This document shows positions 29,651 through 31,861 of a DNA stretch of 50,727 nucleotides, piece by piece. Every line of letters begins with the position of its first letter. Within the stretch, counting starts at the first letter, position 1. The notes under the pieces are model-generated. The model was given only the letters and a program-made list of their open reading frames with translations. It did not search any database and was not told the origin of the DNA. The stretch comes from Peptococcaceae bacterium (lineage in GTDB: Bacteria > Bacillota > Peptococcia > Peptococcales > Peptococcaceae): the NCBI GenBank assembly GCA_017399005.1, contig JAFQEO010000038.1, forward strand, positions 1 to 50,727. The letters run 5' to 3'. The translations under genes were made by a program, and so were the position numbers.

Positions 29651-29781
29651 TTATACCGGTAGAAAACAATCTGGTTTATTTGCATTTTCAGCAACAAGGA
29701 AATCTTGAGAAGAAAATCAAGTATCTTAACAATATTGTAACTCTTTCCCAATAATTCTGTGACATATCCAGATGCTGGATG

Positions 29782-29790
29782 TGGTATACT
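29782..29790 (+). promoter_or_regulatory. Candidate extended -10 promoter of the primase-helicase gene
   Basis: TGG-TATACT (29782-29790) is a TGn-extended -10 element 78 nt before the chosen start. No clear -35 is seen. The stretch 29651-29780 is otherwise AT-rich and without evident structure. Confidence 0.4.
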
Positions 29791-29868
29791 GCTGAACGCA
29801 AAACAGAACCATTCTTTCTAACCTTAAAGTATCTGTTATTTGCAAATAAAGCCAGAAAGGATGATGCG

Positions 29869-31359
29869 ATGAACGAAGAAATGCAGGAGCGGGAGGTAAT
29901 ATACCACTATCTGGAGACTCCGGAGGCTGAGATGGCTGTAGACGGGGAGCTGACTGTGCTGAACACTTTTCTGCCGGTGAGTGAGGAACCCTACACCGCC
30001 AATGATTATGGCAATGCCCGCCGGTTTTTAGACCGCTACGGAGCGGCGGTGCGTTACTGCCCCGAGGAAAAACGCTGGTATCTGTTTAACGGTACAAAGT
30101 GGGCACCGGTGCCGGTGGAGGAAGTGCAGAAGCGGATTCGCAATGCGCTGTTTCAGTCCCACGAGGAGGAACGTGCAAAACTGGAAGCCGAACAGCGGTA
30201 CAAAGAAGCAGCAAAAAGCGAGGATGCCAAAGTCAGCTGCGGCAGAATGAGCAGTATCAAAAGCTGTATGGAAGCTGCCGCTCTGGACTGCTTTATCCAT
30301 CCGCAGGATTTTGACGCCGACATTTACCGGTTTCACGCGGCCAACGGCTCCATACATCTGAAAACCTTTGAGGGGAATTGGTTTCACCAGACAGGGGACT
30401 TTCACACCAAAACAGCCCGTGCCAGCCTGCGAAAAGGCTCTCAGGATGCGCAGGATGACTGCCCGATGTGGGTGCGTTTTGTGAAGCAGTGCTGCATGTA
30501 CGATGAGGACCTCTACAAATATGTGCAGGCTGCTGCCGGATATTCCATTTTAACCGGCGACATCCGGGAGCAGAAGGTGTTCTGCCTGTTAGGCAGCGGG
30601 CGCAACGGCAAATCGCTGTTTATCAATGTGCTGGCCCATGTGGCCGGTGACTATGCCAGAAAACTGGAATCCTCAGTGCTGTGTACCGACCGGTTCGGCA
30701 AAAAAAGTGACGAAACCGAGAAGGAACTGTATCGCATACGGGGCAGCCGGTTTGTGTATTCCAACGAGTTTTCCCAGAGCAGCATCTTAAACGAGAGCTT
30801 TCTCAAAACCATCACCGACGGCGGCCTTATCACCTGCCGCCCGATGTATCGGGAAAGCATCGAGTATATGCCAACTTACACCCTGTGGTTTTCCACCAAC
30901 CATATGCCAGGCCTGCAGGCCATGGACGAGGGCATTCGCCGCAGAATTGTTGTGATTCCGTTTCGCAACCATCTGCGTGAGGACGAGGTAGACCGCAACC
31001 TGGAGGCAAAACTGCTGAGCGAGACCGATGCCATCCTGCGCTGGCTGATTCAGGGTTATCTGCGGTATCATCATCAGGGGCTGGTTCCTCCAAAAGCCGT
31101 TATCGAAGCCACCCGCGGCTATTTTGAGGAACAGGACCCTGTACGCCGTTTTGTAGATGAATACTATGTAGAGAACCCTGCGGGGAGAATCTATGCCCGT
31201 GATATCTATGCGGATTATAAACACTGGTGCGCAGAAAATGGTGAGGAAGTGCGAAGCCAGAAGTATCTGGGTATAGAAATGCAGCGTCTGGCTATCAGAA
31301 AAGAGAAAGACGATAAGGGAAACTTTTACCGCGTGCGGAGAAAGACTGAAGGATTCTGA
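29869..31359 (+). CDS. Phage/plasmid primase P4-type helicase (SF3)
   Basis: A 496-residue protein of the D5/P4 primase-helicase type. The N-terminal part carries WYLFNGTKWAPVPVEEVQKRIR (DUF5906/D5_N-like). The SF3 helicase core has Walker A GSGRNGKSLF (242-251), Walker B region RFVYSNEFSQ, sensor WFSTNHMPGL and an arginine finger in GIRRRIVVIPF. The C-terminal segment is a D5-type winged-helix region. Such proteins initiate replication of satellite phages and integrated plasmids. AGAAAGG lies 9 nt before the chosen ATG. No zinc-finger primase domain, integrase, capsid or excisionase gene is nearby, so it is either a relic or a domesticated gene. The frame is intact and GC is like that of the host. 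Confidence 0.85.
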   Translation: MNEEMQEREVIYHYLETPEAEMAVDGELTVLNTFLPVSEEPYTANDYGNARRFLDRYGAAVRYCPEEKRWYLFNGTKWAPVPVEEVQKRIRNALFQSHEEERAKLEAEQRYKEAAKSEDAKVSCGRMSSIKSCMEAAALDCFIHPQDFDADIYRFHAANGSIHLKTFEGNWFHQTGDFHTKTARASLRKGSQDAQDDCPMWVRFVKQCCMYDEDLYKYVQAAAGYSILTGDIREQKVFCLLGSGRNGKSLFINVLAHVAGDYARKLESSVLCTDRFGKKSDETEKELYRIRGSRFVYSNEFSQSSILNESFLKTITDGGLITCRPMYRESIEYMPTYTLWFSTNHMPGLQAMDEGIRRRIVVIPFRNHLREDEVDRNLEAKLLSETDAILRWLIQGYLRYHHQGLVPPKAVIEATRGYFEEQDPVRRFVDEYYVENPAGRIYARDIYADYKHWCAENGEEVRSQKYLGIEMQRLAIRKEKDDKGNFYRVRRKTEGF

Positions 31360-31548
31360 AGGGTTACTGAATGATTCCTGAATAGACGATTAGCTTAACA
31401 AATAGGGTTCTGGATGATTTGAAGGGTTATTACCGAAAAAACTATGTAAAAAACTAAAAAATATAGATAGTTTATAGAAAATCGTTCAGATGCTTCAGAA
31501 GGTTCAGGAATATACAAAAAGCCGGGACACGAACCGCCTGAAATTCAG
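31346..31548. repeat. CTGAA/TTCAG iteron-like cluster behind the primase-helicase
   Basis: CTGAA occurs at 31346, 31356, 31367 and 31378 (10-11 bp steps). Its complement TTCAG occurs at 31485, 31494 and 31503 (9-bp steps), and both meet in the palindrome CTGAAATTCAG (31538-31548). TGAAGGGTTA is also repeated at 31357 and 31420. An AT-rich stretch (31436-31484) lies between the two sets. This arrangement resembles an initiator-binding origin; the match to any known replicon origin has not been tested. Confidence 0.5.
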
Positions 31549-31730
31549 AAACAGCATAGTATATTTCCAGGAATTCCGACTATAGACGAACACGTTCACA
31601 TCTGTTCATCAGCGTGATGGACAGCGCTTGCGATGTTCCAGCAACGCTGAACAGGTGTGAGGTAGTGTCCGTCACCCGACCAGAAAGGCGTCGGGCGTGG
31701 AGGGAGACGGAAATGATACTATGCTGTTTC
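31548..31730. other. Strongly structured 183-nt element (candidate ncRNA or nested inverted-repeat element)
   Basis: The ends form a 21-bp stem: 31548-31562 pairs perfectly with 31716-31730 and 31563-31568 with 31709-31714, with one bulged G at 31715. Inside, 31596-31606 pairs with 31650-31660 and 31610-31614 with 31645-31649, giving a 16-bp stem. Its loop segment 31614-31623 can pair over 10 bp with 31666-31675 (a pseudoknot), and CCCGAC/GTCGGG forms a hairpin at 31675-31695. A further TGCCG/CGGCA hairpin follows at 31739-31756. There is no plausible coding frame. It may be a structured RNA, a single-strand replication signal, or a MITE with 21-bp ends. I do not recognise a known RNA family. 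Confidence 0.6.
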
Positions 31731-31832
31731 AGTATACATGCCGATTTGTCCCGGCAGTAGTATTCGCAGGCCTGACGGAGAGGGTTGCCTTATAAGTATT
31801 TTTCATGTTTTTTGTATCTTGTATCCGCTTTG

Positions 31833-31861
31833 TTGACAGTTAAAGGAAAATACGATAAAAT
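31833..31861 (+). promoter_or_regulatory. Promoter of ispE
   Basis: A perfect TTGACA (31833-31838), a 17-bp spacer and TAAAAT (31856-31861). It lies downstream of the structured element, so ispE is transcribed independently of it, with a leader of about 140 nt. Confidence 0.8.

Follow-up and report, generated by a model that had tools for sequence, protein, structure and literature searches.

A dispersed repeat family in one genus of Peptococcaceae keeps an elaborate hairpin fold and may be a mobile element

Introduction

What is the long palindrome that lies between a primase-helicase gene and ispE in the genome of a gut Peptococcaceae bacterium? We analyzed a contig of 50,727 nucleotides (the window; JAFQEO010000038.1), in which the original prediction had picked out a compact non-coding element at this place. 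Three guesses were offered there: an undescribed structured RNA, a replication or packaging signal of a satellite element, or a nested-repeat MITE. The element lies about 190 bp behind the D5-type primase-helicase gene. The best PHROG match of that gene (29779 to 31359) spans profile positions 355 to 809 of 855, without the N-terminal part, so the gene may be truncated.

Results

Structure of the window copy

The copy in the window (31548 to 31730) forms one long imperfect hairpin of 183 bp, or about 235 bp when an outer stem is counted. No open reading frame of at least 80 amino acids overlaps it. Folded as RNA, the span 31548 to 31760 reaches −96.3 kcal/mol, against −59.9 ± 4.8 kcal/mol for 200 shuffles, none of which was as stable (z about −7.6); the wider span 31510 to 31765 gives a z of −7.95. 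The nested complementarity thus exceeds chance, as had been supposed.

All features are given on the plus strand. The hairpin is closed by P1, whose 5′ arm (31548 to 31568) and 3′ arm (31709 to 31730) pair over 21 bp around a single bulged G, just as first described. Both fold and covariation support this stem; in an alignment of 20 copies, 17 of its 21 pairs change on both sides. Further in, a near-invariant TTCCGACTATAGA (31574 to 31586) is imperfectly matched to the GGAGGGA side, the pairing being interrupted by a GA/A internal loop, and a conserved GTGGAGGGAG (31697 to 31706; TATGGAGGGA in most copies) is the partner of TTCCGACTATA. P2 joins GACGAACAC (31585 to 31593) to GTGTCCGTC (31665 to 31673), and P3 joins 31595 to 31608 to 31648 to 31661. 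P4 and its apical hairpin (31611 to 31648) hold a conserved internal loop with the consensus GUGRCRGAC..GUCYGRCAA. The inner stem of the original prediction is present as 31596 to 31607 paired with 31649 to 31660, plus 31611 to 31615 paired with 31644 to 31648. The CCCGAC/GTCGGG hairpin is likewise there, as the side hairpin CCCGACCAGAAAGGCGTCGGG (31675 to 31695), a separate small repeat that a minority of element copies carry.

Two other parts need revision. A 10-bp pseudoknot had been proposed, and the complementarity (31614 to 31623 with 31666 to 31675) does exist, but its covariation across 20 copies is 0.091 against 0.084 when shuffled, and both strands belong to other helices: 31665 to 31673 is the 3′ strand of P2, which coincides in part with the pseudoknot's 3′ half, and 31614 to 31623 lies in P4. 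The hairpin is also larger than reported, with a 9-bp outer stem enclosing it (GCCGGGACA, 31521 to 31529, with TGTCCCGGC, 31747 to 31755). The TGCCG/CGGCA letters once taken for a hairpin of their own are present, but they are better read as part of this stem. An A-run stands just before GCCGGGACA, so a minus-strand reading gives a stem and then a T-run, resembling an intrinsic terminator.

Many outer stems in the same genome have an A-run on the left and a T-run on the right; the window copy has its T-run on the minus-strand reading only. Judged by their letters, the outer stems of many copies would pass as intrinsic terminators (GC-rich hairpins with a T-run behind them). A loop as large as that of the element is unusual in a terminator.

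Copy number and distribution

An initial DNA search of the own genome (G000) returned 26 places, some of them the side hairpin alone. We built covariance model R1 from 20 copies (alignment A1; 18 own-genome copies plus two from relatives) and model R2 from a broader alignment of 33 sequences (A3). At E values up to 0.01, R2 matches the own genome at 54 places. About eight of these repeat, on the reverse strand, a copy that is in the count anyway, leaving about 45 copies. The family search gave 53 matches in G000, 59 in G001, 32 in G002, 10 in G003, 8 in G004, 127 in G005, 10 in G006 and 13 in G007, counts that include some reverse-strand duplicates and that, for the relatives, come from drafts with one genome per species; several of the genomes are incomplete. 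The element is therefore multi-copy in its own genome and in seven other members of the genus, which had been suggested as a check. Covariance-model search of five genomes from other genera of the family gave no match, nor did an order-level search of eight further genomes. A phylum sample of 396 genomes outside the genus, searched with stricter filters and seven candidates scored per genome, also gave none. Scanning named genomes for the pattern turned up two, both of them MAGs of Peptococcaceae from the ruminant gut (RGIG7294 and RGIG420).

Rfam 15, searched with the window and 18 loci at gathering and relaxed thresholds, returned just weak, unconvincing matches, and no family at the gathering threshold. 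A tRNA/tmRNA search found none, and phage, plasmid and viral collections contained no match to the element. The family is a dispersed repeat without a matching Rfam family. The guess of an undescribed structured RNA was thus right in part, as to the structure and the lack of an Rfam match, but the element is a dispersed repeat and not a single RNA gene.

Members of the family are about 150 to 240 bp long. Inverted arms are always present and their letters vary; the outer stem AGAGGCTGRGACA or P1 is common to subgroups of copies, and several non-orthologous copies have nearly identical P1 arms. Arm-only and internally deleted copies that are still well paired occur in the own genome (L031, 1010 to 1045; L021). 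Copies also occur in close groups. Divergent double hairpins of about 330 bp, a minus and then a plus copy about 8 to 25 bp apart, are seen at L197, L198, L203, L208, L209 and L211 in G005 and at L222 in G002, and a tandem triple with a period near 195 bp is seen in G005 (L218, 642 to 1181, on C46). In G005, similar divergent double hairpins stand on many contigs, and many copies lie in pairs.

Covariation and conserved letters

The 56-pair structure is the RNAalifold consensus of A1 itself with eight P1 pairs added by hand, and so leans towards the A1 sequences; the shuffles do not preserve relatedness, so the comparisons are not probabilities. Read with these limits, the structure has a covariation score of 0.448 in A1 (0.157 shuffled), with 92.2% of cells pairing (76.1% shuffled) and 36 of the 56 pairs changing on both sides across the 20 copies (22.9 shuffled). 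The compensated changes that had been suggested as a check are thus present. Sliding the partners by one to three columns abolishes the covariation. The letters of P3 are highly variable while its pairing is kept, with 98.7% of cells paired and 8 of 12 pairs changing on both sides. The genus-wide set A3, which is model-fitted and leans further towards its own sequences than A1, scores 0.598 (0.181 shuffled).

Letters are conserved on the 5′ side as TTCCGACTATAGA, on the 3′ side as (TAT)GGAGGGA and in the apical internal loop as GUGRCRGAC/GUCYGRCAA. In nearly every copy, both the GA/A and the apical internal loops stay open and keep their sequence.

Orthologous sites in relatives

Sites of G000 copies were compared with G001, where flanks are 76 to 90% identical, and occupancy was read by eye from the sequences. 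G001 has a plain terminator-like hairpin at the L065 and L077 sites, a short arm-only hairpin at the L062 site, an internally deleted copy in the opposite orientation at the L064 site, and no recognizable element at the L060 site. A diverged element stands at the L069 site, so both species are occupied there. Before ispE, G001 has an arm-only hairpin remnant behind a different upstream gene; no primase gene is present, and thus the suspicion that the element travels with that gene was not borne out. At the ispE site, the model detects a full copy in none of G001, G002, G004, G005, G006 and G007, the G006 and G002 contigs starting close upstream.

Genomic context

Among the 44 G000 copies with both neighbors called by a crude heuristic ORF caller, the neighbors are convergent for 22, codirectional for 21 and divergent for one. 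Background gaps (n = 54, from the window and the same loci) comprise 30 codirectional, 16 divergent and 8 convergent cases. Convergent settings are enriched (22 of 44 versus 8 of 54; Fisher test, P = 0.0003), and divergent ones are depleted (1 of 44 versus 16 of 54; P = 0.0003). The codirectional copies have no consistent orientation relative to the genes (10 ++ and 11 −−). No convergent excess is seen in 38 G005 loci (15 −−, 9 convergent, 8 divergent and 6 ++). Many G000 copies lie 20 to 60 nt past stop codons, often within terminator-like stems, and several copies directly follow another terminator.

parS-like sites and a small side repeat

The fetched G005 loci contain 21 distinct exact GTTTCACGTGAAAC sites, of which many immediately adjoin a copy of the element (L187, L197, L203, L209, L211, L183, L248, L249 and others), where base composition predicts about 0.01 per 3 Mb. 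This palindromic 14-mer is listed as parS for Mycobacterium smegmatis (PMC7022226). At G005 C27, one double hairpin is flanked by two such sites; no ParB gene is beside them, the neighbor being DUF4003. On C31 of G000, five exact TGTTTCACGTGAAACA sites fall in 650 bp around an element copy (L028, 480 to 1180), and of the ORFs scanned there one is a histidine kinase, one a DUF2007 protein and another matches nothing, with no ParB among them. A new kind of mobile element, defined by its folded shape and not by the sequence of its ends, might target terminator loops and, in at least one species, move with parS, with ParB-bound DNA aiding its spread or persistence; we regard this as an improbable elaboration.

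The small repeat CCCGACCAGAAANGCGTCGGG has 29 exact copies in G005, six in G000, three in G001 and two in G009, which belongs to another genus; a reversed control has none. It occupies the same site of the element in opposite orientations in the window (31675 to 31695) and in G005 copies. Further loci of this type are L025, L032, L028 to L030 and L228 to L257. It also stands in the apparent 16S rRNA leader of the own genome, exactly at L025 and with one base off at L032.

Discussion

We find it probable that the element belongs to a genus-restricted, non-autonomous, MITE-like family of mobile repeats that is recognized as a folded single strand. The occupancy differences, the inversion, the near-identical arms at unrelated sites, the random orientation and the genus-limited high copy number together point to a mobile repeat, and the conserved loops hint at a factor that recognizes the fold, which may be a recombinase acting on single-stranded DNA or a protein that binds RNA. 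On the mobile reading, a recombinase or transposase would recognize the folded single strand through its shape and loop letters. Only copies that keep the fold would go on spreading, which could produce covariation without any host function. Copies may persist at terminators because a hairpin there would be harmless and can itself terminate transcription. Against mobility, the diverged element at L069 in both species also fits a maintained function, and the differences between G000 and G001 could be losses only. We saw no full-length element with its own transposase, and no cognate transposase among the few neighboring genes scanned. An autonomous copy, in which two hairpins would bracket its genes, was considered at G005 C1 and G001 C38 and rejected, as only ordinary genes lie there (they include a tRNA m1G methyltransferase, lon, arginase and a VWA protein).

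The main rival is a cis-acting structured RNA at terminators, which in mRNA 3′ ends would bind a protein or block 3′-to-5′ decay, with selection on the RNA giving rise to the covariation. We consider it possible, though rather unlikely. The conserved internal-loop letters and heavy covariation agree with it, as do the many G000 copies shortly past stop codons inside terminator-like stems. On the motif strand, G-U pairs exceed A-C mismatches (82 versus 34), but the excess comes mostly from predominantly U-G columns and is small outside them (42 versus 32), so that RNA and DNA action cannot be told apart in this way. Furthermore, the random orientation of codirectional copies means that about half of them would not be sense-transcribed by neighboring genes, orthologous G001 genes have plain terminators, and the convergent excess does not recur in G005.

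An independently transcribed, trans-acting small RNA with many gene copies would account for the complex conserved structure and for the strand preference of the window copy, which the model scores at 134 bits on the motif strand and 20 bits on the reverse. It is nonetheless a highly unlikely reading. We see no strong promoter dedicated to the copy within the window, and the good promoter at 31833 to 31861 is downstream of it and points to ispE; several copies sit directly behind another terminator, and copy number varies widely between species. Alternatively, the covariation could be an artefact of DNA, with template switching between arms continually perfecting palindromes. The joint changes of the arms fit this, as do the common internal deletions that leave arm-only hairpins; however, such correction would erase the GA/A and apical loops, which stay unpaired and conserved, and we give this very little credence. 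Finally, a replication or packaging signal of a phage satellite carrying the primase gene, for which the proximity of that gene to the window copy speaks, can practically be dismissed and was rejected, since most copies lie elsewhere among ordinary chromosomal genes, satellite genes are systematically absent next to copies at the sites examined in related genomes, the phage, plasmid and viral collections have none, and the G001 remnant before ispE has no primase.

The preferred reading, a mobile repeat, comes closest to the MITE guess, the best fit of the three, although terminal repeats vary from copy to copy. The size lies within 70 to 300 bp, there is no coding capacity, and dispersed copies are many. 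With the hairpin MITEs bcr1, ERIC, YPAL, NEMIS and RUP, the element shares this size range, non-coding and dispersed character, group specificity, a robust fold and positions adjacent to genes (PMC3733652, PMC6542083). For comparison, bcr1 of the B. cereus group averages 39 and reaches 130 copies (PMC3733652, PMC6542083). MITEs as a class have constant terminal inverted repeats of 15 to 30 bp, target-site duplications and a related autonomous transposon or cognate transposase. In contrast, the terminal repeats of our element do not appear constant across the family, its differing arms stay paired, it is lodged in terminator-like stems, and no target-site duplication was recognizable by eye at the copies inspected.

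Like the MRSC-65-2 motif, the element has a single long stem, strong covariation and dozens of copies per genome (PMC11109978). That motif, proposed to be a selfish element possibly acting as DNA, occurs in diverse phyla and has a UYCCGG repeat (PMC11109978). Going by the published description, ours is set apart by its occurrence in one genus and by its letters (TTCCGACTATAGA/TATGGAGGGA and GUGRCRGAC/GUCYGRCAA). REP elements are also intergenic palindromes, mostly downstream of genes and often in close opposite pairs, but they are 20 to 40 bp long with a GTAG or CGTC end tag and are mobilized by RAYTs (PMC3733652). The element differs from them in size and ends, and a RAYT/IS200-like transposase was rejected as its driver because genome-wide searches for the Y1/RAYT transposase (PF01797) found none in G005 or G001, two high-copy species.

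Integron attC sites are recognized as folded single strands, with sequence fairly free and shape conserved. The likeness to our element is a comparison of how they work only, in that a folded shape is kept while letters vary. The attC boxes RYYYAAC/GTTRRRY are absent from the invariant columns of A1, and no cassette arrays accompany the element.

Even strong covariation together with conserved loops does not suffice to establish an RNA gene. The covariance models from this analysis can be used to annotate genomes of the group, and related species, in which a given terminator can be plain, occupied, internally deleted or inverted, provide material for comparison. Bacterial repeats are usually defined by sequence. 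The copies of this element share one elaborate shape with arms that are nearly free in sequence, which raises the question of whether structure alone can define the recognition of a mobile element.
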